NCBI RefSeq assembly: GCF_011769985.2 | Contig: NZ_CP039734.2 | Coordinates: 620,001 to 684,000, forward strand | DNA: 64,000 nt | Source: Sulfurospirillum diekertiae | GTDB taxonomy: Bacteria; Campylobacterota; Campylobacteria; Campylobacterales; Sulfurospirillaceae | Direction: 5' to 3' | In this document: positions 25,906 to 39,642 of the stretch, one piece after another | How the letters are laid out: each line of letters begins with the position of its first letter | How positions within the stretch are numbered: position 1 is the stretch's first letter | Notes under the pieces: generated by a model | The model's input: only the letters and a program-made list of their open reading frames with translations | Database searches by the model: none | What the model was told of the DNA's origin: nothing | Made by a program: the position numbers and the translations under genes

Positions 25906-26487
25906 TTGGGACTTAAAGAGAATATTCAAGCGGTCAAAGAAGAAATTAGCACTGAAGAGCAATTCCTTGAGGGAATGATCAAAGGAGAGCGTTTTTTTAA
26001 TCGCAATAAAAAATATATTATCTCGGCATTAGTGCTTGTAGCTTTGGGTGCTGGATGGTATGCTATCAATGACATCATGTCGCAACAGCGTTTAAAAGTT
26101 TCAAATGAAGCGTATCAAGTTTTATTAAAAGATGCTAACAATACGGCAGCACTTGAAACACTTAAAGCGAAAAATCCAAAGTTGTATACGATGTTTATTT
26201 TTGAAACAGCACTGGTGAAAGGTGACACTGAAGCACTTAAAACAGTCTCTCTTTCTAAAGAAAATCCTATTTTAGCGGATTTGGCAACCTATCAGCTTTC
26301 TCAACTTGATCTTAATGCAACACCAAAAGGGGAATTATTGGCAGGCATGGTGCTTCTTCAAGAGGGATATGATTTACTCAAAGATAAGAAAATAGAAGAG
26401 GCGAGGTTGAAATTTGCTCAGATTGATGCAAATTCACCACTTAAACAGATTGCAAAAAATCTAGAACACTATCAAGGTTTGAAATAA
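25906..26487 (+). CDS. YfgM-like membrane-anchored TPR-type protein
   Basis: A 193-residue bitopic protein: a charged cytoplasmic N-terminus, one membrane segment at about residues 38-54 (YIISALVLVALGAGWYAI), then a helical periplasmic domain with tetratricopeptide-like spacing. The layout and the adjacent BamB-like lipoprotein gene recall the E. coli yfgM-bamB pair; YfgM is an ancillary SecYEG partner. The assignment is by architecture and context, not by clear motif. The TTG start has AAGGAT 5 bases upstream. Its TAA stop overlaps the next ATG (TAATG). Confidence 0.55.
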   Translation: MGLKENIQAVKEEISTEEQFLEGMIKGERFFNRNKKYIISALVLVALGAGWYAINDIMSQQRLKVSNEAYQVLLKDANNTAALETLKAKNPKLYTMFIFETALVKGDTEALKTVSLSKENPILADLATYQLSQLDLNATPKGELLAGMVLLQEGYDLLKDKKIEEARLKFAQIDANSPLKQIAKNLEHYQGLK

Positions 26488-27497
26488 TGAGATACGCAAA
26501 AATTGCCTTTTCACTTTTGGCTTTATTAATGGTTGTAAGCGGCTGTGGTACAAAACGACAATACTTTGAACCAGAATCACTTGCTGGAAAAGTTAGTTAT
26601 GATGATTCATTACCAGGAACAATTATAGATGCAGTGAGAGATGGTGCGACATTGTCTAATGGGCAAGTTATAAATAAAAGTGGTCTAACAAATATCATTT
26701 TACCAGAAGGTTTTGTTTACCTTTCTGAAGATAAAGGTCGTTATGTTGCGGCTTCTAAGTGTGGTGCCGTACAAATTGTTGATGCCAGTAAAAAAGTTCT
26801 TTTTTCTAAAGAATGTAGTGTAGCTGTAGCTTCTGCAGCGCTCAAAGGAAATCTTTTAGCACTTGTTTTAGGTTCTAATGAGCTTGTCATCATTGATATT
26901 AATGATGGCAAAGAGATGATGCATTTAAGACAAGATAATGTGTATGTTTTAGATTCTCGTATTGCTTCTCCGTATTTTTTGGGCGATTTGATTGTTTTCC
27001 CAACACTTGATGGTAAATTGTTAATTGTTGATCAACAAACTAAAAAACCAATCCGTGATGTTGTTGTAAGTAATGAAAAGTTTTTTGGGAATATTATTTA
27101 TCTTCAAGTTTTAGGGGATCGTTTGGTCGCTGCAACAAAAAGTAAAGTTGTCTCCATTAGTCCAAAAGCTATCAGCTTTTTAGAGACGGATGTCAAAGAT
27201 GTGATTGTTCTTGAAAATCGTATCTTTGTTTTCACTAAAGATGGACGTGTCATTCTTACCGATGCAGATCTTAAAACACTTAAAGAGCGCAAATTTCCAT
27301 TTGCAACATTTGCTGGAACTATTTACGGTGATTTTATTTACATGATTGAAAAAGGTGGCTATGTCATTGCAACAGACTTAGATCTCATCTCAACAAATGT
27401 TTATAAACTTCCTGACAGTATAGAAAGTCATGTGTTTACAACAGGTGATGCGCTTTATTATAAAAATCACTTTTTCAAGCTAAATCGTAAGAAATAA
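26487..27497 (+). CDS. Putative BamB-like beta-propeller lipoprotein
   Basis: A 336-residue protein with a lipoprotein signal (LLALLMVVSGCG, lipidated Cys about residue 20). The rest is rich in short beta-strand repeats with alternating hydrophobics (for example LIVFPTLDGKLLIVDQQTKKPIRDVVV and FAGTIYGDFIYMIEKGGYVIATDLDL), as in PQQ/WD-type propellers. BamB is the outer-membrane assembly lipoprotein of that fold; the coupling to a YfgM-like gene supports the idea, but no diagnostic motif is visible. It could be another envelope lipoprotein conserved in Campylobacterota. Confidence 0.55.
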   Translation: MRYAKIAFSLLALLMVVSGCGTKRQYFEPESLAGKVSYDDSLPGTIIDAVRDGATLSNGQVINKSGLTNIILPEGFVYLSEDKGRYVAASKCGAVQIVDASKKVLFSKECSVAVASAALKGNLLALVLGSNELVIIDINDGKEMMHLRQDNVYVLDSRIASPYFLGDLIVFPTLDGKLLIVDQQTKKPIRDVVVSNEKFFGNIIYLQVLGDRLVAATKSKVVSISPKAISFLETDVKDVIVLENRIFVFTKDGRVILTDADLKTLKERKFPFATFAGTIYGDFIYMIEKGGYVIATDLDLISTNVYKLPDSIESHVFTTGDALYYKNHFFKLNRKK

Positions 27498-27517
27498 GAG
27501 TTGGATTTAATACCACT

Positions 27518-27844
27518 ATGAAGGAGATGTTAGAACGTATTTGTAACAAACAAGTCGTTTTTACATCTCTAGAAATGGTGGATCCCAAAATAGTGCTCCA
27601 TACTCGTAAAAAACTTGCTATCTTTTGTGGTACTGATCGCAAATCTTTTTATCACTTAATTTTTCATTCCCAACAAAAGAGTCGTTTTCTTATGAAACAC
27701 GTACAAGAAATTATTGAATTTACGTGTGCATTAGAATCACATTTCCAGCATGCCTATAAGTATAAGCACTTATTAGTACAAGCACCCGTATGTTCAAAGG
27801 CAGCACTCTTACTTCATGAAAATGGTTGGAAGGTTTATGAATGA
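27518..27844 (+). CDS. Conserved hypothetical protein upstream of coaX
   Basis: A 108-residue soluble, basic protein with several His and Cys residues and no signal peptide, membrane segment or motif that I recognise. Its stop overlaps the coaX start as ATGA, so the two are translationally coupled, and it stands between the lipoprotein and coaX genes. A small unknown gene beside coaX is also found in Campylobacter, as I recall. The function is unknown. Confidence 0.55.
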   Translation: MKEMLERICNKQVVFTSLEMVDPKIVLHTRKKLAIFCGTDRKSFYHLIFHSQQKSRFLMKHVQEIIEFTCALESHFQHAYKYKHLLVQAPVCSKAALLLHENGWKVYE

Positions 27845-28464
27845 TTTTATGTGATATTGGTAACTCAAATGCAGATTTTTATCAAGATGGTAAAGTATGG
27901 ACAATACCGCATAAACAATTTAAAGAGTTTGTAGCTACAGAAAAAGTCTATTATATTAGTGTTAGTGAAGCTCTCAAAACTACACTTCAGTCGAAAAATA
28001 ATTTTATTGATTTGGAACCTTTCTTCGAGTTTGATACAATTTATCAAGGCATGGGAATTGATCGTATTGCTGCATGTTCAACAATAAGGGATGGTATGAT
28101 TGTCGATGCAGGAAGCGCAATAACAGTTGATATCATGTCAGGAGGAATGCACTTAGGAGGCTTTATTTTGCCAGGGCTTAGTGCCTATGAGAAGTGTTAT
28201 GCTTCCATTTCACCTCGTCTTATGCTCCCCATTAATCCAAGTATATCACTTGATGCACTACCGCAGAAGACGAATGATGCTATTTCATATGGGGTTATTA
28301 AATCAATTATCATGCTTTTAGAAATTACATGTAAAGATAAAAGAATTTTTTTTACAGGCGGTGATGGAAAATTTTTCTCTAAATTTTTCAGTAATGCGAT
28401 TTTTGATCGTACGCTGATTTTTAGGGGAATGCTCAAAACTATCAAAGATGCACATTTGGAATAG
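27841..28464 (+). CDS. coaX: Type III pantothenate kinase
   Basis: A 207-residue CoaX, the first step of coenzyme A synthesis (pantothenate to 4'-phosphopantothenate). The ASKHA-fold motifs are DIGNSNADFY at the N-terminus (phosphate 1), GMGIDRIAAC (the family GxDR signature) and DAGSAITVDIM (phosphate 2), with GGFILPGL after it. Type III kinases do not use feedback by CoA and are the usual kind in Campylobacterota. One palindrome copy lies inside at 28325. Confidence 0.93.
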   Translation: MILCDIGNSNADFYQDGKVWTIPHKQFKEFVATEKVYYISVSEALKTTLQSKNNFIDLEPFFEFDTIYQGMGIDRIAACSTIRDGMIVDAGSAITVDIMSGGMHLGGFILPGLSAYEKCYASISPRLMLPINPSISLDALPQKTNDAISYGVIKSIIMLLEITCKDKRIFFTGGDGKFFSKFFSNAIFDRTLIFRGMLKTIKDAHLE

Positions 28465-28474
28465 TAGAAATTTC

Positions 28475-28543
28475 TGCCTCGTTAGAGGCAAGCTTTAGCG
28501 CCACAGCAGCAGAGCGTAGGTTTTTTGGCTTTGCCTAAAAACC
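28475..28543. other. Structured intergenic element between coaX and hisG
   Basis: The 106-bp gap holds two hairpins: TGCCTC-GTTA-GAGGCA (28475-28490), and GGTTTTTTGGC-TTT-GCCTAAAAACC (28519-28543, one mismatch), separated by a GC-richer stretch (CCACAGCAGCAGAGCG). It may be a terminator plus leader structure or a dispersed intergenic repeat. Confidence 0.4.
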
Positions 28544-28570
28544 GTAATTAAAAATAGAAAAGGGAAAAGA

Positions 28571-29194
28571 ATGTTAACAGTGGCATTGCCAAAAGGCAGA
28601 ATTGCAGAAGAGACTTTAGAAATTTTTGAGAAAATTTTTGGAACAGCATTTCGTTTTGATGATCGTAAATTGATTTTAGAAGCAGATGGTTTCCGATTTT
28701 TATTGGTTCGAAATCAGGATGTTCCAGCTTATGTTTTGCATCAATCTGCAGATATTGGAGTGGTTGGCTTGGATGTGTTAGAAGAAAAAGATGAGGATCT
28801 TTTACGTTTGCTTGATCTTGGTATTGGAAAATGTAAAGTATGTGTTGGCATTCAAGAGGGTAAATCAATTGATTATAGTGCTCCAGAACTAAAAGTTGCT
28901 ACAAAAATGACTAATATTACACAAAAATATTTTTCTAAAAAAGCAATGGCTGTTGATATTATTAAACTGTATGGCTCTATCGAATTAGCCCCTCTTGTAG
29001 GGCTATCAGATGTGATCGTTGATATTGTAGAAACAGGTAGTACAATGAAGCAAAATGGACTTAAGGTTGTTGAAACAATTTTAGATTCTTCAGCGTATTT
29101 AATTGCAAATAAAAATAGTTTTATTGAAAAGAAAGAGGAAATTACTTCATTGTATTATAAGATAAATGAAGTGATACAAAAACGTAGTTGCTGA
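28571..29194 (+). CDS. hisG: ATP phosphoribosyltransferase, short form
   Basis: A 207-residue HisG of the short type (HisG_S), which condenses ATP and PRPP in the first step of histidine synthesis. It starts LTVALPKGRIAEETLEIF and carries the PRPP-binding motif DIVETGSTMKQNGL near residue 155. The C-terminal regulatory domain of long HisG is absent, so the enzyme is expected to need HisZ, which is not in this window. RBS AGGGAAAAG precedes the ATG. The stop codon directly abuts the stop of the converging response regulator gene and lies in a shared terminator stem. Confidence 0.94.
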   Translation: MLTVALPKGRIAEETLEIFEKIFGTAFRFDDRKLILEADGFRFLLVRNQDVPAYVLHQSADIGVVGLDVLEEKDEDLLRLLDLGIGKCKVCVGIQEGKSIDYSAPELKVATKMTNITQKYFSKKAMAVDIIKLYGSIELAPLVGLSDVIVDIVETGSTMKQNGLKVVETILDSSAYLIANKNSFIEKKEEITSLYYKINEVIQKRSC

Positions 29195-29213
29195 TCAAAA
29201 TAGATCAGCAACT
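29186..29213. terminator. Bidirectional terminator formed by the abutting 3' ends of hisG and the response regulator gene
   Basis: AGTTGCTGATC pairs with GATCAGCAACT (11 bp, loop AAAATA). Both stop codons (TGA on each strand, forming TGATCA) lie inside it. T-runs follow on both sides: TTTT on the + strand and ACGTTTTT on the minus strand. Confidence 0.8.
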
Positions 29214-29578
29214 TTTGCTATTTTACTGCTAAGTTCATGCTCTCTAATAGGTTTGACTAAAAAATCAAAAGCTCCATGATCAAAGGCTTCATGTTTACGA
29301 GTTTCATCGGTAGTTAAAACAATGACAGGAAGTTTTTTAAATTCTATCATAGATTGAATATTCGTTAAAAATTCAATACCATCCATAACAGGCATTTTGA
29401 TATCAAGTAATACGAGATCAATATCTCCTTGCATCTTTAAGAGATTGATAGCATCTAATCCATTGGTAGCTTCGATAATAACACCAACATGTGCATTCTT
29501 GCGCAGCATTGAACTAATGAGCTTGAGATTAATAAAATCATCATCAACTGCTAAAATCTTTAATTGTTTTCCCATCAT
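29195..29578 (-). CDS. Single-domain CheY-like response regulator
   Basis: A 127-residue lone receiver domain: acidic pair in AVDDD near residue 12, phosphoacceptor D in LVLLDIKMPVMDG (about residue 59), the Thr switch in VLTTDE and the lysine in FLVKPI. It has no output domain. It starts 8 bases after the stop of the hybrid kinase gene, so it is the probable phosphoryl acceptor or shuttle of that kinase. Tail-to-tail with hisG with no base between the stop codons. Confidence 0.88.
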   Translation of the reverse strand: MMGKQLKILAVDDDFINLKLISSMLRKNAHVGVIIEATNGLDAINLLKMQGDIDLVLLDIKMPVMDGIEFLTNIQSMIEFKKLPVIVLTTDETRKHEAFDHGAFDFLVKPIREHELSSKIAKVADLF

Positions 29579-29586
29579 ATGGCCTT

Positions 29587-32500
29587 TTAAATAAACTTAT
29601 GGATAAGTGTCTCAAGGTCTTTTTTGCTAATTTGATTTGGTAAAATAGCATCAAAGGCAACGGTGGTATCTTGATTTTTATCTTTTGGATCAATAAACAT
29701 AATCGTATTGATTTTACCTGCATTGTGCTCTTTTTCAGTTGACTGAATCCATGTTGAAAATATTTCTACATCATCCAGAAGCATCTCTTTATCAAAAAGA
29801 ATAACTTTGTAGTGTTTTGATCCAATTTTTTGTTTAAAATCATTGTAGGAAGTAGCTGATTCAACGTATTCACACATTTTACTTAACACGCTTGTAAATA
29901 TTTTCGTTTCAATAGGGCTTTTCTTCAAAACAAGCACATCTTTGATCTCGATCGTTGGAACGATTGATTCATTACTCTTCTCTTCAATAAGAGGATTTTG
30001 AATCTCTTCAATGCTTGTAGATAAGTTTGGTTCAACATGTAGCATTTCTTCCGATTGAAGAGGCACATGTATCTCCTCAGGCTGTTGTTTTACTGTCGAT
30101 TGTTTAACGTCTACCGAAGGAGCTTCCTCTTGCGCCGTAAAATCTATTTTATCTTGAATAAAGAGGTTAAGAATACTAATAATACTGTCTTTTTTGATTG
30201 GTTTTGTTATATACTCGTCCAATCCTTCTTTCATAAAACGCTCACGATCACCTTTGAGCGCATTAGCCGTAATAGCAACAATAGGAATATGGGGGAGATG
30301 GTTTTGCTCTTCATACTCGAGAATTTTATGCGTTGCTTCAATGCCATCCATAACGGGCATCGCAATATCCATGAAGATCATATCAAAGTTATCATTACGG
30401 CGACGTTCTACTGCTTGAAGACCATTAGGTACAATCGTAATATTAAGGCCTAAATCTTCTAATGTTCTTCGAATTAATTTTTGATTGATCTCATTATCTT
30501 CGGCAACAAGCACATTCGCTTTAAATTTCTTGCCAAAAGTAACTTTTGGCAATGGTTGTGGTTCAATACGATCTTCTTTTACCGGTAAAAATTCGCGTTT
30601 GGATTCCAGTGCTCTAACAAGTTTTGATACGTTGATTGGCTCATAAATAGGTGTAATGTATTTCGTATTAAACTCATTGTACTTGACTTGTTGAGAAGAT
30701 TTGAAGATCAGGATAATAGGTAACTTGATCTTTTTATACTCTTCAAGTTCTTCCTTGGTAAGATTGTTATAATCAGCGACGATGATATTGCTTCCTGCTT
30801 TAAAAATAAGGTTTTTAAGTGCAGGAAAATCTGTATAGTATTTTGCATGTGCTCCAAAATAAGTAAAGTAATCGTACATAAACTCAGTATGTGCTTTATT
30901 ACTATTGAGAGGTGAATAGATGGCGCAATTAAAGTCATTGAAATGATCTTTATAGTCGGTACCACTTGAGCTGGATTCTACAAGGTCTAATACAAAGAAG
31001 AAGCGGCTACCTTTACCTTCATCACTTTCCACTTCTAAACGACCACCCATCAGAGCAATATATTTTGATGAGATGGTTAGACCCAGTCCTGTACCTCCAA
31101 ATTTACGTGTAATCGTAGAATCAGCCTGGTTAAAGGCGTCAAAAATACCTTCAATTTTATCTTTGTTAATACCAATACCTGAATCTTGTACACTGAAGAG
31201 TACGCGAGCTTTATCAAGGGGTGCATTATCGACACGTTTGATTTCTACAGTGATTTGACCATTGTTTGGAGTAAATTTAACAGCATTACTCATAAGATTG
31301 ATGAGAACTTCTTTGATCTTAACGGCATCACTTTTAAGGTAGTTGTGTAAGCTAGGGTCAATATACAATGAAAGTTGAATATTCTTTTCAGCAGCCTTCG
31401 GTCCATACACTTCAACTGCATTCTCAAATTCGTCAATAGGGGAGAAGAGAATTTCGTCGATTTCGATTTTATTGCTTTCTACTTTAGAAAGATCAAGAAT
31501 ATTATTAATAATGGCTAAAAGGTTTTCAGAACTTTTTTCAATAACATCTACAAATTCACGTTTTTCTTCATCGAGATCAGAATTTTTCAAAAGTTCTGTA
31601 AATCCAATAATACCATTAAGAGGTGTTCTAATTTCATGAGACATATTGGCTAAGAAGATACTTTTTGCGGCACTGGCTTCTTCCGCATTTTTCTTCTCTT
31701 TGGCAATGTTTTCAATCGCTCGATCGATAATACCATAAGCGACGTTCATACCTTCCGCCGTGTTAAAGTCAACTTTTTCTTTTGTTTCGGCAAGTTCTTC
31801 AACACGTGTAAAGATATTTTCAAGGCCTTGAACATTCTTTCTAAATTGTCCTGAAAGTCCAAGTCCTAGGAACATCAAAACGATGGAGATAATCCATGTA
31901 AGCCCTGCACCAATCAATTGACCCATGTTTTGAGTATCATAGTTTTTTTCTTCTACGTTAAGAGAAGCTTTAATAATTTGAGCAGATTTGTCAAGAATAT
32001 CAATTTTCTTTGTTAAGAGACCAAACCAGAGCGTAGGGTCGATTAAGTACTCGCCACTTTGCGCAGCTGTAATAAGTTCAGCCTTGACTTGAGTGATTTC
32101 CTCGTCAAGTTTAATATTCTCTGGGAGTTTATAAAGTGTTTCAATCTGTGTACGTGTTGCTTGGTCATTAATAGTAGTATGGTCAAAAATATTTGAAACA
32201 CCAAAAATACTAATCCAAATTTCAAGGTCCTTAGGGCTAAAAGGGACATATTGACTGAGGATTTTAGAAACGAAACCTCTCTCTTGTCCTAAATATTCGA
32301 TGTTTTTGTAGGCAGAAACCAAAGAATACGTAAGGTTTGAAATATTAGAGTTTGAATTGATAGCTCCCAGTGTTTCAAGCTCTTTTAAGAGAAATGTATT
32401 AATCTGACTATAGTAATCAAAGAACATTTTATTAAAGTCAATCGAGAATTTATCGACTGCTTGACGCATATCACCAATCTTGTTAATGTAAAGAATAGTG

Positions 32501-32826
32501 TTTTTAATATTTGGCGTTACTTCATGGGTTTGATAAAAGTTATGAAATTCCGTAATGGCTTTTGTAACCGCTACGCGTTGTTCTTGAAGAGATTCTTTTG
32601 CAATACTTCCTTGACTTGAAATATAAGAAGCGCTCAGTCCCCTCTCTTTTGCAAGCTCAATAGAGAGTGTGCTTAAAACCCGGGTACTTTCTATTTTGTT
32701 TTTCAGTGTTAACGTTGTATCAAATTGCTTATATGATAAGAAGAGAAAGTAACTGGAAAAAATAAAAAGAATAATCAGAGGATATTGACTGATAAGCTTT
32801 AAAGTATGCTGAGTCGTTAATTTCAT
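29587..32826 (-). CDS. NIT-domain hybrid histidine kinase with three receiver-like modules
   Basis: A 1079-residue sensor kinase. TM1 is at about 14-31. The periplasmic domain (about 40-295) has the ELAKERGLSASYISSQG and QEQR features of the NIT (nitrate/nitrite-sensing type) domain. TM2 is at about 303-325, followed by a linker, HisKA with FLANMSHEIRTPLNG (H397) and HATPase (N box LMSNAVKF, G box FGGTGLGLTIS, about 500-615). A degenerate receiver follows at about 630-745 without the acidic pair. An intact receiver (about 770-892) has phosphoacceptor D820 in MDIAMPVMDG. After an acidic linker, a second degenerate receiver (about 962-1079) lacks the acidic pair and the KP motif. The ligand is unproven. 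The neighbours suggest a phosphorelay. Confidence 0.88.
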   Translation of the reverse strand: MKLTTQHTLKLISQYPLIILFIFSSYFLFLSYKQFDTTLTLKNKIESTRVLSTLSIELAKERGLSASYISSQGSIAKESLQEQRVAVTKAITEFHNFYQTHEVTPNIKNTILYINKIGDMRQAVDKFSIDFNKMFFDYYSQINTFLLKELETLGAINSNSNISNLTYSLVSAYKNIEYLGQERGFVSKILSQYVPFSPKDLEIWISIFGVSNIFDHTTINDQATRTQIETLYKLPENIKLDEEITQVKAELITAAQSGEYLIDPTLWFGLLTKKIDILDKSAQIIKASLNVEEKNYDTQNMGQLIGAGLTWIISIVLMFLGLGLSGQFRKNVQGLENIFTRVEELAETKEKVDFNTAEGMNVAYGIIDRAIENIAKEKKNAEEASAAKSIFLANMSHEIRTPLNGIIGFTELLKNSDLDEEKREFVDVIEKSSENLLAIINNILDLSKVESNKIEIDEILFSPIDEFENAVEVYGPKAAEKNIQLSLYIDPSLHNYLKSDAVKIKEVLINLMSNAVKFTPNNGQITVEIKRVDNAPLDKARVLFSVQDSGIGINKDKIEGIFDAFNQADSTITRKFGGTGLGLTISSKYIALMGGRLEVESDEGKGSRFFFVLDLVESSSSGTDYKDHFNDFNCAIYSPLNSNKAHTEFMYDYFTYFGAHAKYYTDFPALKNLIFKAGSNIIVADYNNLTKEELEEYKKIKLPIILIFKSSQQVKYNEFNTKYITPIYEPINVSKLVRALESKREFLPVKEDRIEPQPLPKVTFGKKFKANVLVAEDNEINQKLIRRTLEDLGLNITIVPNGLQAVERRRNDNFDMIFMDIAMPVMDGIEATHKILEYEEQNHLPHIPIVAITANALKGDRERFMKEGLDEYITKPIKKDSIISILNLFIQDKIDFTAQEEAPSVDVKQSTVKQQPEEIHVPLQSEEMLHVEPNLSTSIEEIQNPLIEEKSNESIVPTIEIKDVLVLKKSPIETKIFTSVLSKMCEYVESATSYNDFKQKIGSKHYKVILFDKEMLLDDVEIFSTWIQSTEKEHNAGKINTIMFIDPKDKNQDTTVAFDAILPNQISKKDLETLIHKFI

Positions 32827-32841
32827 GGTCGGAGTCCTTTA

Positions 32842-33240
32842 TTAACTGTTTAGTAGTATATTGTAAGTAGAAGCAATGTCTTTACATGTAACGCTATCTT
32901 TTGCCCCTTGGTTGAGGAGAGAAACAGCCTCATCATGTTTGACTTTATTTTTAAGATAGGCTTCCGCAAGGTAACATTTTGCTTTAATATTGCCTTTCAT
33001 CACCGCTTGTTCTAAGTAGGGAATAGCAAGTGCTGGGTTGGCTTCAACGCCTTCTCCGTAAAGATACATTTTCCCAAGGTAAAAGTATCCTTGCACTGAA
33101 TTCTCTTTTTTAATAGAGAGTTCAAACAGCTCTTTAGCATGTACAAAATTACCATTTTTATATTCCATCATTGCATCTCGAAAGCTATCTGCCCATGCGA
33201 AAGATAGAAGTAAAAAAAGGCTCAAAATCAGTTTATTCAT
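32842..33240 (-). CDS. Small periplasmic Sel1/TPR-repeat protein
   Basis: A 132-residue protein with a signal peptide (MNKLILSLFLLLSFAWA) and about three Sel1-like helical repeats (AKELFELSIKKENSVQGYFYLGKMYLYGEGVEANPALAIPYLEQAV, then KAKCYLAEAYLKNKVKHDEAVSLLNQGA). Such proteins are protein-protein adaptors. It lies 15 bases before the NIT-kinase gene and overlaps the preceding gene as ATGA, so it may be a periplasmic partner of the sensor domain (inference). A palindrome copy is at 32882. Confidence 0.75.
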   Translation of the reverse strand: MNKLILSLFLLLSFAWADSFRDAMMEYKNGNFVHAKELFELSIKKENSVQGYFYLGKMYLYGEGVEANPALAIPYLEQAVMKGNIKAKCYLAEAYLKNKVKHDEAVSLLNQGAKDSVTCKDIASTYNILLNS

Positions 33241-34409
33241 AAAACATTCTCCTTAAAACGAGCAACCGAATCTTGAAGGTTTTTTAATGTCTGGAGAATT
33301 TCCTCTTTGGTATCAAACTCTAAACTGGTCTCTAGATGCTCAAATTGATTGGAAAGTGAGGCTATTTGTAAATGAAGTGCAATGCTCTTGAGTTTTGTAA
33401 TCTCTTCTTTTGCATTGTTGCGGTTATTGTCATTAATGGCTTGCAACAAAAGGGGCATTGCAATATTTAAGGCATTGATATACTCTTCAAGGATTTGTGC
33501 TAACGTGCTAATATCAAGTCCTAGTTCTTCCGCACACTGTGCAAGATCAAACTCTTCATCTTCTACGAGTAGCGGTGCTGGTGCTTTTCTGAGCTCTTCA
33601 ACAAAGAGTGTTGTATCTTCACGGAGATTTTCTTCTTTGTCATCGGGATAATTTTCAATGGGTGCTACAAAATCAAGATCATTGATTTTAATTTGGTCGA
33701 TCGAGTGATATTCAAAAGATGTGTCTTCGTTTTGTTTCTCATCACTTTTGGGTTCTTCTAAAATATGATCGTCAAATTTAAGTTTAAAATCAAATGAATC
33801 TTCTGGGAAAGGAAGCGATGAACCAATTTTCAAATCACTCTCTTCTTTAGGTTCATCAAACGTCTCTTCTAAAGGTTTGAGGGTAGGTGCTATAAAATCA
33901 TCTTCTCGTTCTGTAGTAGATAAAGATAACGGGGTATCAAAGTTAATATCAGATGACAAGGATGGTGGGGCATCTTCAACAAAAGTTTCTTCATGCGGAA
34001 TGAAGCTAGGAGTTAATTCTTGTTCGACCATAGGTGCAGAAGCTGGAGATTTGTTTGTTGAAAGAGGTAGATCATGTTTAAATGGGGCGTTGTTCAGTTC
34101 CACACTGTAGAAAAGAAATGAGCCGTTAATCTCTTTTTGGAGGTATATTTCATTAATAGTTAGTGATGTTTCAATTTCTTTACCATTTTTGGTTTTGATC
34201 AAAACGCGTTTATTGGGTGTACCGCTATGCTGAGCATAATCAATCCATGAGAAGTTTTTGAACTTAAAGATAAAGCCAGGTTTGTTCACAAAGAGGTCGG
34301 CAAAATCATTGTGATAATTACGAAACTCTTCCATGTCTTCGTATCCTAACAGATACAACTCTTGGGTTCCCATTCCTAGAAATAGACCACTTTTATCGTA
34401 AAGTATCAA
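33237..34409 (-). CDS. PAS-like / acidic linker / Hpt-like signalling protein
   Basis: A 390-residue soluble protein. The first about 110 residues look PAS-like (YDKSGLFLGMGTQELYLLGYEDMEEF, with a PAC-like RVLIKTKNGKEIETSLTI). Residues about 120-280 are a highly acidic, low-complexity linker rich in Glu, Asp, Ser and Pro. The last about 105 residues form a helical bundle resembling an Hpt domain. The usual phosphoacceptor motif (HxLKG) reads TKLKS, so the histidine is missing. The TTG start has AAGGAT 7 bases upstream. It is the first gene of the kinase cassette, 61 bases after uvrC. The role is inferred: a non-phosphorylatable docking partner, or an unrelated helical bundle. Confidence 0.6.
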   Translation of the reverse strand: MILYDKSGLFLGMGTQELYLLGYEDMEEFRNYHNDFADLFVNKPGFIFKFKNFSWIDYAQHSGTPNKRVLIKTKNGKEIETSLTINEIYLQKEINGSFLFYSVELNNAPFKHDLPLSTNKSPASAPMVEQELTPSFIPHEETFVEDAPPSLSSDINFDTPLSLSTTEREDDFIAPTLKPLEETFDEPKEESDLKIGSSLPFPEDSFDFKLKFDDHILEEPKSDEKQNEDTSFEYHSIDQIKINDLDFVAPIENYPDDKEENLREDTTLFVEELRKAPAPLLVEDEEFDLAQCAEELGLDISTLAQILEEYINALNIAMPLLLQAINDNNRNNAKEEITKLKSIALHLQIASLSNQFEHLETSLEFDTKEEILQTLKNLQDSVARFKENVL

Positions 34410-34470
34410 ATGACGATCCTTGAGTGAACGTTGAAAATTCCATTTTAACTCACTTATACTTAAAACTAAC

Positions 34471-36270
34471 CTACTTTTTTAAGCCCTGAAATAGATTAGC
34501 GCCAAGCTTCTTACCTACGGTGACCTCTAGTTCTTCTTGACTCGCATTATAGATGGCTTCAAAGGTTCCAAAGTAGAGGAGTAATTTCTTAATCGTTGCG
34601 GCACCTACGCCTTCAATGGTTTGAAGTTCTAAACTCATATCACGCCCTCGTTTTTTCTTTTGATGATAAGTGATAGCAAAGCGGTGTGCTTCATCTCGAA
34701 GACGTTGGATAAACTGTAAGCGCTTATCGCTAGGAGGCAGTTCAAATGACTGGTTTTGGTTGTAAAGAAGATCGTGCGCACTTCCTTTGGCACGGTTTGC
34801 TTTGGCATCGCGTTTTTCTTTGGCGATCGCAAGTAAATCGACCTGTACCCCTTTTTGCAAGAGCAGACTTTTCGCCAGTTTTAAAATGGTTTCACCTCCA
34901 TCGAGTACCCAAAGATCGGGAGCAGATTCTTTGGAAAAATCATTAATACGACGCTCTAACATTTCTCGCATTTGTGCATACTCATCGCTGTGGTGAAGTT
35001 CGTAACGGCGGTAACTAGCCTTGTCAAACCCTTCATCCCAAACGACCATGCCTCCGACGGGGGATTTGCCTCCAAGATGGGAGTTGTCAAAAATTTCAAT
35101 GCGTTTGGGAAGGGCTGTAAAATCAAATAGCACTTGCATCTGTTCTGTGAGAGAATTATTGTTTTTGGTGCTGTGTTGAATTAAAATTGTTTTGGCATTC
35201 TCTTGCGCCATAGAGATTAAATGCAGTTTTTCACCGCGTTGTGGGACGCTAATGGTGATCTTTCGCCCAAATTTTTCACTTAAAAATTGACTCATATCTT
35301 CGTGTTCGTTAAAGGATTCTGCGATGAGAATTTGCTTGGCAAAGGTTTGATTCATCGGGTTATAAAACTCAAAGAGTGCGCGTTGATACAGCTCCTCTTT
35401 TTCAAAACCGTACGCATTGTGCATGAGTGTGTGCGATGTCGAGACGATTTTGCCACCACGAATAAACAGACGCATAATGACTGCTGTTTTTTCCATGATC
35501 TCAACGGCAAAAACATCGTAATCTTCCAGTTTTGAGAGTTCTACATGCGTTACATGTAAAGCGTCTTTAATGGAATTGATGATGTCACGAAGCTTCGCCG
35601 CCTCTTCAAAATTGAGCTTCATCGAAGCCTCTTCCATCTTTACATGTAAAAGGGTAACGAGCTTTTTTTGATCGCTTAAAGCTTCCAAGGCTTCTTGGAC
35701 AATTTTGGTGTACACTTTGGTGTCTATCTTTTGTTCACACGGTGCTAAACAGCGGTGAATCTGGTGAAACAAACAGGCTTTTTTGCCTTTCAAACAGCCC
35801 TTCTTTTGCACCAGTGGAAAAGCTAAATAAAGCGCATCTAAAAGTGCCTTGGCTGAACCTGAAAGGGGACCAAAATACTTCATATGCTTATCGTTGACAA
35901 TTTTACGTGTGATCTCAAAACGGGGGAACGGCTCAGCAAGATTGATGGCGATGTACGGGTAGGTTTTATCGTCGCGCAATAAAATGTTGTACTTGGGTTT
36001 GAGCTGTTTGATCAGCGAGTTTTCCAAAATGAGTGCGTCGTGTTCGCTTTGCACGACGATGTATTCGACATTTTCGACTTCACTAATCATCTTGGCGATG
36101 CGCGGTGAGAGATTAGGCGCAGCACTCAGTTCACCCGAAAAGCGAAAATAGCTCTTCACACGATTTTTAATGCTTTTGGCCTTGCCCACATATAATAGCA
36201 TGCCTTGCGCGTTAAAATATTGGTAAATTCCCGCATTGTGCGGAGCGTTTTTAAGTTTTTGGGCTAGCAT
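34471..36270 (-). CDS. uvrC: Excinuclease ABC subunit C
   Basis: A 599-residue UvrC, which makes both incisions in nucleotide excision repair. The N-terminal GIY-YIG nuclease is present (AGIYQYFNAQGMLLYVGKAKSIKNRVKSYF, about 14-43), then a cysteine pair region (KKGCLKGKKACLFHQIHRCLAPC), a UVR/UvrB-binding motif (EEASMKLNFEEAAKLRD), the RNase H-like C-terminal nuclease (EIFDNSHLGG and LWVLDGG) and a final helix-hairpin-helix (LQTIEGVGAATIKKLL). Its start overlaps the upstream DUF721 gene end. Two palindrome copies (35550, 35640) lie 90 bases apart, the closest complete pair in the window. Confidence 0.96.
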   Translation of the reverse strand: MLAQKLKNAPHNAGIYQYFNAQGMLLYVGKAKSIKNRVKSYFRFSGELSAAPNLSPRIAKMISEVENVEYIVVQSEHDALILENSLIKQLKPKYNILLRDDKTYPYIAINLAEPFPRFEITRKIVNDKHMKYFGPLSGSAKALLDALYLAFPLVQKKGCLKGKKACLFHQIHRCLAPCEQKIDTKVYTKIVQEALEALSDQKKLVTLLHVKMEEASMKLNFEEAAKLRDIINSIKDALHVTHVELSKLEDYDVFAVEIMEKTAVIMRLFIRGGKIVSTSHTLMHNAYGFEKEELYQRALFEFYNPMNQTFAKQILIAESFNEHEDMSQFLSEKFGRKITISVPQRGEKLHLISMAQENAKTILIQHSTKNNNSLTEQMQVLFDFTALPKRIEIFDNSHLGGKSPVGGMVVWDEGFDKASYRRYELHHSDEYAQMREMLERRINDFSKESAPDLWVLDGGETILKLAKSLLLQKGVQVDLLAIAKEKRDAKANRAKGSAHDLLYNQNQSFELPPSDKRLQFIQRLRDEAHRFAITYHQKKKRGRDMSLELQTIEGVGAATIKKLLLYFGTFEAIYNASQEELEVTVGKKLGANLFQGLKK

Positions 36271-36719
36271 GATCGATTTTTTGTAATGGTCTCTTTAATC
36301 GCTTCAAAAAGTGCGCGCAGTTTTTCATCCTCACACAGCGTTTCAAAGGCTCCCGTGGCTTGTTCCGCATAGAAAATTTCTGAATTAGCAGAGGCAATCA
36401 ACGCCTCTTCTTCGTTTTTTTGATTCGTGACAAAGGCTTGAACCTCGTTTACATGTAAACAAGCACACTCTGGAAAATGTGCATGAACCTCTTTTAATAG
36501 ACTCTTTATTAAATTACGTTTATAATTAAATTCCATTTTGGCACAAGGATGATTGAGTACAAAAAAGAGCGTATCGTTTTTGGTGTACACAAAGCGTATC
36601 ATGCTTGTGAAGCTTTTGGGTAATAAACTGAGCAATCTGTCATAACAACGCACCTGCTCATATTTCTTCATAGAAGGTTGTTGTACGAGATGAGAAATTA
36701 TACTTTTAGAATCTTTCAT
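36264..36719 (-). CDS. DUF721 (DciA-like) protein
   Basis: A 151-residue protein with a basic N-terminal half. The segment LSLLPKSFTSMIRFVYTKNDTLFFVLNHPCAKMEFNYKRNLIKSLL resembles the DUF721 fold, whose best known member is DciA, the replicative helicase operator of many bacteria. The match is by pattern only, and the C-terminal half (about 100-151) is unlike DciA. The gene overlaps uvrC by 7 bases. On the other strand its first 30 bases overlap the start of the small lipoprotein gene. A TATAAT sits 4 bases before the ATG. A 14-bp palindrome copy lies at 36447. Confidence 0.5.
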   Translation of the reverse strand: MKDSKSIISHLVQQPSMKKYEQVRCYDRLLSLLPKSFTSMIRFVYTKNDTLFFVLNHPCAKMEFNYKRNLIKSLLKEVHAHFPECACLHVNEVQAFVTNQKNEEEALIASANSEIFYAEQATGAFETLCEDEKLRALFEAIKETITKNRSC

Positions 36720-36839
36720 GTTCTCATTATAGCATGTTTGGGCTTTGCTCTTTTTGGTTGTGGTTTCAAGGGTCCTCCTATTTACAAAGACAGTAACACA
36801 ACGACCTATCCTAAAAATATACGCACAACCGTCAAATGA
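36690..36839 (+). CDS. LptM-like 49-residue lipoprotein
   Basis: A short reading frame from ATG 36690 to TGA 36839. It encodes a basic N-terminus (MRNYTFRIF), a hydrophobic segment (VLIIACLGFALFG) and a lipobox with Cys24 (LFGC), followed by GFKGPPIYKD and a 26-residue mature tail. The CGxKGPP-type start of the mature protein matches LptM (YifL), the small lipoprotein that helps LptD-LptE assembly in the outer membrane. The stop overlaps the nadB start as ATGA, which supports translation. The first 30 bases overlap the DUF721 gene on the other strand. No strong ribosome binding site was found. The family call rests on the lipobox motif; the reading frame itself is convincing. Confidence 0.7.
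   Translation: MRNYTFRIFHVLIIACLGFALFGCGFKGPPIYKDSNTTTYPKNIRTTVK
36724..36729 (-). promoter_or_regulatory. -10 box placed for a leaderless DUF721 transcript
   Basis: TATAAT on the minus strand ends 4 bases before the ATG at 36719, so transcription would start at or inside the start codon. There is no Shine-Dalgarno sequence. The box lies inside the coding sequence of the opposing small lipoprotein gene. Confidence 0.4.
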
Positions 36840-38305
36840 AAACGTCGTATGATGTTTTAATTATTGGTACAGGCATTGCGGGTTTAAGTACGGCACTTGC
36901 ACTACCACGCTCACTGAGTGTGCTTATTGTCTCTAAAGATTACGCATGGGAATGCAATACCTTTTACGCACAAGGTGGTGTCGCCGTTGCCAAAGATACG
37001 GCTGACATACCTTTACATGTAAAAGATACACTCGGCGCTGGGGCAGGACATTGTGACCCAGAGGCGGTTAATGTGCTCTGTTCTGAAGGGCCGATTGCGA
37101 TCAAACGTTTAATCAATATGGGATTTCATTTTGACAAAGATGAAGATGGAAATCTTCTCTACACCAAAGAAGCAGCACACAGCACCAACCGCATTTTACA
37201 CGCAGGTGGTGACGCCACAGGGCGCTACATTCACCTTTTTTTAATGCAACAACTTCCTTTTCCTATTCTTTATAACACGCAAGTCACTGACCTATTGATT
37301 GATGAGGGTGTCTGTTATGGTGCACGTGTTTTTCATGCCGATAAAATTTTTAATCTTTATGCTAAAAAAGTCATTATTGCCAGTGGTGGAGTAGGGTCTC
37401 TTTACGAGTATCACACCAATGCGCGAACGATTAGTGCCGATATGCAAGGCATTTGTTTGAGTCATGGCATTGCACTTGCAGATATGGAAATGATGCAGTT
37501 TCACCCTACCGCTTTTGTGCTTGGCAACAGCGTTCGTAAACAGCTTTTAAGCGAGTCGCTCAGAGGCGAGGGCGCCATGGTGGTGGATGAAGATGGGAGA
37601 CGGTTTGTGTTTGATTATGATCCACGAGGCGAACTTGCACCCCGCGATGTGGTGAGTCGTGCCATTTTTCGCTATAAACAAAAAACGGGTAAAGAGGTCT
37701 ATTTAGACTTAAGTGCCTTTACCAAAGAGCATTTTGCACAGCGTTTTCCGAGTATCTATTTTAATATGACCAATATTGGCTACAACGTACCTGAACAGCG
37801 AATTCCTATCTCTCCAGCCTTTCACTACTCCATGGGTGGCATTAAAACGGATTTGCGAGGAAACGTTTTACATGTAAAAGATCTTTATGCCGTTGGCGAG
37901 TGCGCAAATACCGGTGTGCATGGAGCAAACAGACTTGCAAGTAACTCATTGCTTGAAGGATTAGTGTTCTCCGCTCGTGTGGCAGAGGAGATCAAACAGA
38001 GTATCTTCGAACCAAAGGTACAGCGTACGTTTAGCGAAGTTGAAGAAGTGCTGATACACGAAAATGACAAGGTGCTTAAAAATGAGTTACGCCATTTGAT
38101 GTGGTATTATGCAGGCATCCTGCGAGAACCAAAAAATTTGGAAAAAGCAAAAAAGAGAGTGGAAGAGATGTTAGCATTATCCATTGGAAAACTGCTGAGA
38201 CTTCGACTTTTAGTGTCACTTGAAATTATTACCAGTGCGCTTAATCGAAAAGAATCACTGGGTGCACACTATTTACAACAAGGGAATGACCTATGCGAAT
38301 CTTAG
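36836..38305 (+). CDS. nadB: L-aspartate oxidase
   Basis: A 489-residue FAD enzyme that oxidises aspartate to iminoaspartate for NAD synthesis. The N-terminal dinucleotide fold is VLIIGTGIAGLSTALAL, followed by FYAQGGVAVA, HSTNRILHAGGDATGR, the active-site region MMQFHPTAFV and RGEGAMVVDEDGRRFV, and then VGECANTGVHGANRLASNSLLEGLVF. The C-terminal helical domain is shortened compared with the roughly 540-residue E. coli protein. NadA is not adjacent. It is coupled to the LptM-like gene upstream (ATGA) and overlaps nhaD by 13 bases. Two palindrome copies lie inside (37013, 37868). Confidence 0.95.
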   Translation: MKTSYDVLIIGTGIAGLSTALALPRSLSVLIVSKDYAWECNTFYAQGGVAVAKDTADIPLHVKDTLGAGAGHCDPEAVNVLCSEGPIAIKRLINMGFHFDKDEDGNLLYTKEAAHSTNRILHAGGDATGRYIHLFLMQQLPFPILYNTQVTDLLIDEGVCYGARVFHADKIFNLYAKKVIIASGGVGSLYEYHTNARTISADMQGICLSHGIALADMEMMQFHPTAFVLGNSVRKQLLSESLRGEGAMVVDEDGRRFVFDYDPRGELAPRDVVSRAIFRYKQKTGKEVYLDLSAFTKEHFAQRFPSIYFNMTNIGYNVPEQRIPISPAFHYSMGGIKTDLRGNVLHVKDLYAVGECANTGVHGANRLASNSLLEGLVFSARVAEEIKQSIFEPKVQRTFSEVEEVLIHENDKVLKNELRHLMWYYAGILREPKNLEKAKKRVEEMLALSIGKLLRLRLLVSLEIITSALNRKESLGAHYLQQGNDLCES

Positions 38306-39642
38306 TAGCGCTATTTGTTTTAGTTAATACCATTTGGGCGTCAAGTGGTCAAAATCTTACTAATACTTGGGTTGGAATCGTCTCATTAATCCTCTTCGTT
38401 GTGGGGTATTATGTCGTAGCCGCTGAGGAAAAATTTCATATCAATAAATCAAAACCTGCTTTGTTTATGGGAACATTCATTTTTATTCTCATTGGTATTT
38501 ATTTTGCCGTAAATGGGATGGATAATACACCTTTAACGCATGAACTTGATGCTCTTATTTTAGAGATCGCAGAGATCTTTTTCTTCTTAATGGTAGCAAT
38601 GACCTACATTGAAACGATGATTGAACGACGTGTTTTTGATGCGCTGAAATATAATTTAGTTTCAAAAGGCTATTCGTATAAAAAACTATTTTGGTTAACA
38701 GGAAGCTTAGCGTTTTTTATTAGTCCTGTTGCAGATAACCTCACTACGGCCTTAATTCTCTCCACAGTTCTGATCACAATCGAAAAAGAGGATAAACTCT
38801 TTTTAGTCCCAGGTGCGATTAACATTGTTGTAGGTGCCAATGCTGGTGGCGCTTGGAGCCCTTTTGGTGACATCACTACGTTAATGACATGGATGGCAGG
38901 TAAAGCTACGTTTGTTGAATTTTTTGGACTTTTCCTTGCCGCCTTTTTAGGGTGGTTGCTCACGGGTTGGTTACTCTCCTTATCTGTTCCCAAGACAAAG
39001 CCCCATTTTGACGCCAGTGTTGAACAAAGGGTTGTGATCTTAAAAGGTGGAAAAGTGGTGATTGCTTTAGGTGTTATTACCATTATCTGTGCCGTTTTAT
39101 GTCAACAACTTTTCCATATACCACCGATGTGGGGTATGGTTTTTGGACTCTCTTTACTTAAGCTCTACACCTATCAGCTTAAACGTAGAAGCAATGAATT
39201 TATCAGTATTTTTCAATCCATCAGTAAAATTGAATACGATACACTGTTCTTTTTCTTTGGTATTTTAGCTGCGGTTGGAGGGCTTCATTTTTTAGGTTTC
39301 TTAGATTTAGCTGCAAAATTGTATGATAGTGCAGGTGCAACCACGGTTAACATTGGCGTAGGCTTTTTATCGGCTATCGTCGATAATGTCCCGGTGATGA
39401 GTGCCGTGTTAAAAGCCAATCCTACGATGAACGACGATCAATGGTTATTGGTAACAATGACCGCAGGTATTGGTGGGAGTTTGATTAGCTTTGGTTCTGC
39501 TGCAGGCGTGGGTGTTATGGGAAAACTTAGAGGTATTTATACCTTTGGAACGCATATGAAATACGCATGGACCGTGTTTGCTGGCTATGTTCTCTCGCTG
39601 GTGATTTGGTATATTCAGTTTGAAATTATTGGCATATTTTAA
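38293..39642 (+). CDS. nhaD: NhaD-type sodium/proton antiporter
   Basis: A 449-residue polytopic membrane protein with about 12 segments. Family features include SPVADNLTTALILSTVLITI, NIVVGANAGGAWSPFGDITTLMTWMAGK and the later VGFLSAIVDNVPVMSAVL with GIGGSLISFGSAAGVGVMGKLRGIYTFGTHMKYAW. NhaD antiporters export Na+ (and Li+) in exchange for protons. The first about 17 residues could be a signal-like segment (MRILVALFVLVNTIWA). It overlaps the nadB 3' end by 13 bases and is followed after 13 bases by guaA, so it belongs to the same transcript. Confidence 0.92.
   Translation: MRILVALFVLVNTIWASSGQNLTNTWVGIVSLILFVVGYYVVAAEEKFHINKSKPALFMGTFIFILIGIYFAVNGMDNTPLTHELDALILEIAEIFFFLMVAMTYIETMIERRVFDALKYNLVSKGYSYKKLFWLTGSLAFFISPVADNLTTALILSTVLITIEKEDKLFLVPGAINIVVGANAGGAWSPFGDITTLMTWMAGKATFVEFFGLFLAAFLGWLLTGWLLSLSVPKTKPHFDASVEQRVVILKGGKVVIALGVITIICAVLCQQLFHIPPMWGMVFGLSLLKLYTYQLKRRSNEFISIFQSISKIEYDTLFFFFGILAAVGGLHFLGFLDLAAKLYDSAGATTVNIGVGFLSAIVDNVPVMSAVLKANPTMNDDQWLLVTMTAGIGGSLISFGSAAGVGVMGKLRGIYTFGTHMKYAWTVFAGYVLSLVIWYIQFEIIGIF

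Follow-up and report, generated by a model that had tools for sequence, protein, structure and literature searches.

A uvrC-linked hybrid kinase operon of Sulfurospirillum with two pseudo-receivers and a histidine-less Hpt domain that may serve in docking

Results

Gene content and layout of the operon

The window (the whole 64,000-nucleotide stretch of DNA analysed, from a genome of 2.78 Mb) contains, on the minus strand and downstream of uvrC, which has the same direction, four closely packed genes at positions 29195-34409, for a PAS/acidic/Hpt-like protein (HptL), a Sel1 protein, a NIT hybrid histidine kinase and a lone receiver (Table 1). The open reading frames bear out the gene content given in an initial annotation of this DNA: 8 bases separate the lone receiver gene from the kinase gene and 15 bases the kinase gene from Sel1, and Sel1 overlaps HptL by 4 bases. 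The TTG start of HptL is matched in its homologues by an ATG at, or adjoining, the same codon. The closest named match to the locus is Sulfurospirillum diekertiae (98% identity in REC3, the third receiver module of the kinase). uvrC lies at 34471-36270 and the BarA-like kinase gene belongs to its operon; in gammaproteobacteria UvrY, the partner regulator of BarA, also adjoins uvrC. No Rfam family was found in 26000-38500, no candidate for an output target of the lone receiver was found among the adjoining genes, and the lone receiver gave no match when used as a query against E. coli genomes.

Table 1. Coordinates of the genes, domains and other features of the operon within the window
Feature	Position	Strand	Basis
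HptL: PAS-like domain, acidic disordered linker and His-less Hpt bundle, 390 aa, TTG start	33237..34409	-	ORF, AlphaFold model
PAS-like domain of HptL, aa 1-108	34086..34409	-	model fold, Foldseek PAS matches, dN/dS 0.025-0.086
Acidic disordered linker of HptL, aa 109-283	33561..34085	-	pLDDT mostly <50; dN/dS 0.14-0.25 where dS finite
Pseudo-Hpt bundle of HptL, aa 284-390, motif T338-K-L-K341-S342	33240..33560	-	alignments, model, Foldseek, tree, dN/dS
Thr338 codon, position of the catalytic histidine	33396..33398	-	alignments
Sel1/TPR-like protein, 132 aa, apparent signal peptide	32842..33240	-	ORF, Pfam
Hybrid histidine kinase TM-NIT-TM-HisKA-HATPase-REC1-REC2-REC3, 1079 aa	29587..32826	-	ORF, Pfam, model
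NIT sensor domain, aa 56-280, flanked by TM 11-30 and TM 301-328	31987..32661	-	Pfam 86 bits
HisKA, phospho-acceptor His397	31474..31668	-	Pfam
HATPase_c, N and G boxes intact	30982..31329	-	Pfam, alignment
REC1 pseudo-receiver, without acidic pair, YEP for K-P	30592..30936	-	alignment, model; dN/dS 0-0.04
REC2 intact receiver, E776/D777, D820, T853, K875	30169..30513	-	Pfam, alignment
REC3 pseudo-receiver, pocket K968-K969-S970, D1012, N1064	29590..29955	-	alignment, model; dN/dS 0.05-0.16
Lone receiver, 127 aa, intact active site, without output domain	29195..29578	-	Pfam, alignment
Terminator-like hairpin between the convergent lone receiver gene and hisG, end of operon	29186..29213		consensus match only

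Sensor, kinase and receiver domains

Pfam recognized the core of the kinase with high scores (HisKA 83 bits, HATPase_c 97 bits, one receiver 90 bits), the lone gene as a receiver (89 bits), and the sensor as a NIT domain (PF08376, 86 bits against a cut-off of 24.9); the Sel1 score of 28.9 bits is slightly below the cut-off of 30.7. Two transmembrane segments bracket the NIT domain, which is taken to be periplasmic and whose E-R motifs are mostly conserved in the window's family. Nitrate or nitrite is a candidate ligand, an idea taken only from the name of the Pfam family. The genome encodes one other NIT protein, a 669-aa methyl-accepting chemotaxis-type protein (L069:2815-4824) with a stronger NIT match (188 bits).

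The AlphaFold model of the kinase C-terminus contains three alternating alpha/beta modules, of which REC1 has a complete receiver fold, REC2 is receiver-type and REC3, with weak profile matches to solved receivers, has no clear fourth helix. Alignments confirmed that one intact receiver is flanked by two without an acidic pocket: D820 occupies the exact phospho-acceptor position of REC2, REC1 (about 631-745) reads CAIYSPLNS at the pocket and YEP at the expected K-P, and REC3 (958-1079) reads VLVLKKSPIE at the pocket and N1064 at the expected lysine. Both flanking modules retain the central aspartate (D685 and D1012) and both lack the phosphotransfer residues whose absence defines pseudo-receivers, namely the acidic pair and the K-site lysine. 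In REC3, K14, K15, S16, E19, K21, D58, E60 and N110 (domain numbering) were invariant in all 21 diverse rows compared. The Lys-Lys-Ser pocket occurs in nearly all relatives, the second lysine being lost in some that carry HptL (one f17 genus, L127 and L158). REC1 and REC3 are degenerate wherever the kinase occurs, including relatives with a catalytic Hpt domain, which indicates that this state is ancestral to the comparison and rejects loss of the Hpt histidine as its cause. At the sequence level, the catalytic sites are intact in HisKA, HATPase, REC2 and the lone receiver, and REC1, REC3 and the Hpt-like domain of HptL are incapable of normal phosphotransfer.

The Hpt-like domain and its lost histidine

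In HptL the motif TKLKS stands in place of HxLKG, with T338 at the position of the histidine, as the initial annotation had read it. The Hpt profile of Pfam (PF01627) scored 13.7 bits, and 17.1 bits in the genome search, without reaching its cut-off of 24.6. In the AlphaFold model a disordered linker connects a PAS-like domain (1-108) to a helical bundle at the C-terminus (289-389, pLDDT about 85-92), and Foldseek matched HptL to PAS domains and to the solved HPt domain 3myf (probability 1.00, TM 0.65 on the target, E about 0.015-0.034), none of the matches being at E<=0.001. Structure prediction therefore agrees with the initial annotation on the receiver-type modules in the kinase and on the Hpt-like bundle. 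The bundle has the fold of a catalytic Hpt domain without the histidine of the HxxK[GS] motif, which was found in none of the 30 members counted in the window's family.

In other families, many relatives have a protein with two or three Hpt domains in tandem, of which one shows a clean HKLKGVAANLRI motif (HKLKG) and one lacks the histidine. In a tree of 110 Hpt domains, one branch separated the 37 histidine-bearing copies from the 73 histidine-less copies, among them that of the window; its SH-aLRT support of 91.7 is under the strict mark and, with 98 columns, a rate artefact is possible. The simplest view of this split is that the window's Hpt domain is the long-silent member of such a pair, the catalytic copy being absent from its family. 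Few positions of the histidine-less copies vary as much as the histidine site (2.8-3.0 bits). The lysine three residues further on (H+3) is kept in 29 of 30 copies both in the tandem group and in the window's family, with Arg in the remaining copy of each. This lysine belongs to the docking face of Hpt-receiver complexes. A substitute histidine elsewhere in the bundle was considered and rejected: the candidate at motif position +8 occurs in only 14 of the 30 family members.

Distribution and selection

The order uvrC-HptL-(Sel1)-kinase-receiver is also seen elsewhere in the window's family and in several others across the Campylobacteria, and the REC3 profile matched 204 of 397 genomes of the class, although the weaker matches may include other receivers. 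Most members of the window's family have the Sel1 gene, which otherwise occurs sporadically; the protein is dispensable to the set. The initial annotation had presented a four-gene cassette of unknown kind; this view was not upheld, because the operon, located behind uvrC, occurs widely in the class, can do without Sel1, and in relatives has a catalytic Hpt domain within HptL. A search for co-occurrence, which the same annotation had proposed, revealed an arrangement common to the class and not a unique cassette. One complete genome of the same genus (G014) lacks both HptL and REC3; the operon has apparently been lost there. In some genomes (L074/L043, L094/L048, L095/L055) two or more frames make up the kinase gene, through assembly error or real breakage, and in S. 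cavolei the lone receiver (L077 10366-10746, same genome as L039) has Asn for the phospho-acceptor Asp (LLNIKMP), the sister species having Asp. The PAS-like domain of HptL also gave weak matches inside long frames of 600-1280 aa (e.g., G048:C42:9342-9611 and G037:C3:3262-3456), which are probably other signalling proteins.

Selection was estimated as dN/dS (Nei-Gojobori) between close relatives where dS was not saturated. The values were 0.03-0.14 for the pseudo-Hpt domain, 0-0.04 for REC1, 0.05-0.16 for REC3, 0.01-0.05 for the intact REC2 and 0.14-0.37 for the linkers. Every silent domain is far below 1, i.e., under purifying selection: these domains are functional.

Natural deletions of parts of the system

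Loci that have lost parts of the system were compared among 83 loci. The lone receiver was present in all 72 with a live HisKA and REC2 and in one of the 11 without, and HptL was retained in seven of these 11. Where the kinase or the intact receiver is dead, the lone receiver has almost always been lost, and the histidine-less Hpt domain and REC3 have usually been kept. At L063, NIT and two transmembrane segments are joined directly to REC3, with no kinase, REC1, REC2 or lone receiver, and HptL and Sel1 are kept. L057 has NIT, REC2 and REC3 without a kinase, the lone receiver is gone and HptL is kept; at L101, REC2 and the lone receiver were lost together, the kinase and HptL remaining. In one Campylobacter-type genus (L147, L148, L151, L153) the HisKA histidine and the N/G boxes are absent, REC2 is dead, the lone receiver is gone and the histidine-less HptL is kept; the kinase homologues are open frames of 950-972 aa, and similar lengths occur in many more genomes of the genus. 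The UvrC tree places about five independent kinase-death events, and these are too few for pairwise phylogenetic sign tests on the losses to reach significance.

In a jejuni-type genus (L154, L155, L156, L165), HptL is gone, and the membrane protein of 345-411 aa that lies behind uvrC, with one or two receiver-like modules, appears to be all that is left of the kinase. The uvrC gene of C. jejuni is Cj1246c, and Cj1245c ("hypothetical protein") is, by gene order only, the likely counterpart of this remnant. Cj0247c was rejected as the relic of the jejuni group, since Cj0246c is an MCP-type protein and uvrC is Cj1246c. A survey of signalling in Campylobacterota found that Campylobacter has shed much of its signalling and that one subgroup has no hybrid kinases (PMC9239204), which fits the decay at this locus.

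A candidate docking partner

Correlations between domain distances were calculated after removing the signals of UvrC and of the kinase core. The receiver that the pseudo-Hpt domain tracked most closely was REC3, with a median of 0.27 in 61 genomes and of 0.29 in the 29 with tandem Hpt domains. REC3 exceeded REC1 and REC2 in 95-99% of subsamples, but only modestly exceeded the lone receiver (median 0.23), in 73-82% of them. The catalytic Hpt domain instead tracked REC1 and REC2 (0.40/0.27). The window's family taken alone does not discriminate, as REC2 (0.68) exceeds REC3 (0.57) there after removal of the UvrC signal. Overall the test is weak, and the correlations favour a pairing of the pseudo-Hpt domain with REC3 without showing it.

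Discussion

A docking role for the silent domains

Since REC1, REC3 and the Hpt-like domain have lost relay chemistry and are nevertheless kept by selection, we suggest, from these sequence comparisons, that they are probably docking parts and not relay steps. The initial annotation had favoured docking or gating modules over a standard relay; for these three domains, which are ancient, selected and kept after loss of the core, that idea is well supported, and for the docking partner we can only infer one. We tentatively propose, with a little less than even confidence, that the operon is the Sulfurospirillum form of a signalling system of the whole class, in which the pseudo-Hpt domain would dock on REC3 and so tether the PAS protein to the sensor. 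Having kept its docking face (the lysine at H+3 and LK[GS]), the pseudo-Hpt domain could bind a receiver-like partner, most likely REC3, without taking phosphate, and such docking would hold a cytosolic PAS protein at a membrane sensor. In relatives with a catalytic Hpt domain in the same protein, the tether might keep that domain beside REC2, ready to pass phosphate on to the lone receiver; for the window's family, the tethered PAS module might be a second input that gates the kinase. As the catalytic Hpt domain is absent from this family, the lone receiver would take its phosphate from another Hpt domain or straight from the kinase. By analogy with the pseudo-receiver of ShkA, REC1 is probably a gate on autophosphorylation.

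Some lineages might have gone further, to a device free of phosphate in which the NIT sensor signals through a pseudo-receiver to the pseudo-Hpt/PAS protein by binding alone. We regard this as rather unlikely, although the sensor of L063 is joined straight to REC3, and one Campylobacter-type genus has a kinase, all three receivers and an Hpt domain that are all dead yet full-length.

Other readings of the operon were weighed against docking of the pseudo-Hpt domain on REC3. The domain might be a competitive inhibitor like AHP6 of plants, which would occupy REC2 or the lone receiver and block transfer from a real Hpt domain. It retains the docking residues of Hpt domains without the histidine, plant pseudo-HPts of this kind do compete with HPts (PMC5975490), and its distances also track the lone receiver and, within the window's family, REC2. 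However, it is kept in L063, L101, L147, L148, L151 and L153, where REC2 and the lone receiver are lost or dead, so that nothing in the operon is left for it to inhibit, and we consider inhibition unlikely as its role.

Equally unlikely, in our judgement, is an ordinary relay with the Hpt step in trans, running from the kinase and REC2 through a stand-alone Hpt protein to the lone receiver, with the silent domains as minor spacers. HisKA, REC2 and the lone receiver are intact, and the genome does encode a stand-alone Hpt with an intact histidine (FHNMKS; G000:C1:463829-464236 = L068:2872-3279), adjoining trpA; these facts are compatible with the docking model too. That protein, however, occurs in 94 of 150 genomes of the class at E<=1e-5 (some weaker rows being CheA-like), including some in which HptL has a catalytic Hpt domain, and because it is widespread regardless of the type of HptL, it was not supported as a dedicated replacement. 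Moreover, spacers would not be expected to show a dN/dS as low as that of REC2, as REC1 does, or to outlive the kinase.

Much less probable is that the silent domains are decaying relics that drift has stripped of the histidine and the acidic pockets: the system is plainly being reduced in the Campylobacter-type genomes, but the frames stay long and open over saturated divergence, KKS/D/E/N are invariant in REC3, the pseudo-Hpt lysine is nearly so, and drift is rejected by the dN/dS values of these domains, which are far below 1. Least credible of all is that Thr338, or a Ser close to it, accepts phosphate in the way proposed for the Ser/Thr phosphotransfer domains of ChpA; the window has Thr exactly at the histidine position, but close relatives have S, L, Y, A, I, T, V, M or N there, and the His-less Hpt domains of ChpA were not phosphorylated in vitro (PMC10542144), so Thr338 was rejected for want of conservation.

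Significance

Hpt domains without the histidine are rare and unexplained in bacteria: a survey counted 90 among 10,312 bacterial Hpt domains, and the same 2025 review calls the switching of pseudo-receivers a mystery (PMC12632262). The system described here sets a pseudo-receiver and a pseudo-Hpt domain side by side, conserved in a class, with natural deletions that remove the kinase, the intact receiver and the lone receiver singly. A docking role for phosphorelay parts can thereby be tested on a specific candidate pair, and genome surveys should not count such genes as working relays. A literature search found no description of this operon, an absence that is not proof of absence elsewhere.

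Comparison with known systems

The kinase core resembles that of BarA/GacS/LetS, with the order HisKA-HATPase-pseudo REC1-REC2, and BarA is the NCBIfam model that matches it best (407 bits, residues 377-903). This score is well short of the PRK11107 cut-off of 890, the sensor here is a NIT domain, and the place of the C-terminal Hpt domain of BarA is taken by the KKS pseudo-receiver, the Hpt domain being on a separate PAS protein. In ShkA of Caulobacter, too, a pseudo-receiver lies between the catalytic domain and REC2, and its structure (6qrj) was the top Foldseek match of the kinase C-terminus. Binding of c-di-GMP to REC1 of ShkA releases autoinhibition (PMC7010744). By inspection, the DDR motif of its REC1-REC2 linker is not kept here (EDR in the window; ENK, EKA etc. 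in other members), and ShkA is without the third, basic-pocket receiver and the pseudo-Hpt protein found in this operon.

ChpA of Pseudomonas aeruginosa combines histidine-bearing and histidine-less Hpt domains in one protein, as do relatives of HptL (PMC10542144). ChpA, however, is a CheA, whereas here the histidine-less copy belongs to a PAS protein encoded next to a NIT hybrid kinase, and in several lineages it survives on its own. AHP6 and the other plant pseudo-HPts likewise have the Hpt fold without the catalytic histidine and are kept by selection (PMC5975490). AHP6 is a soluble competitor, unlike the pseudo-Hpt domain described here, which forms part of a PAS protein and is retained even with no active relay partner in the operon. 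REC1 and REC3 fit the definition of pseudo-receivers given in a recent review (PMC12632262); what sets them apart from the pseudo-receivers reviewed there is a two-lysine pocket kept almost family-wide and paired within the operon with a conserved pseudo-Hpt domain.
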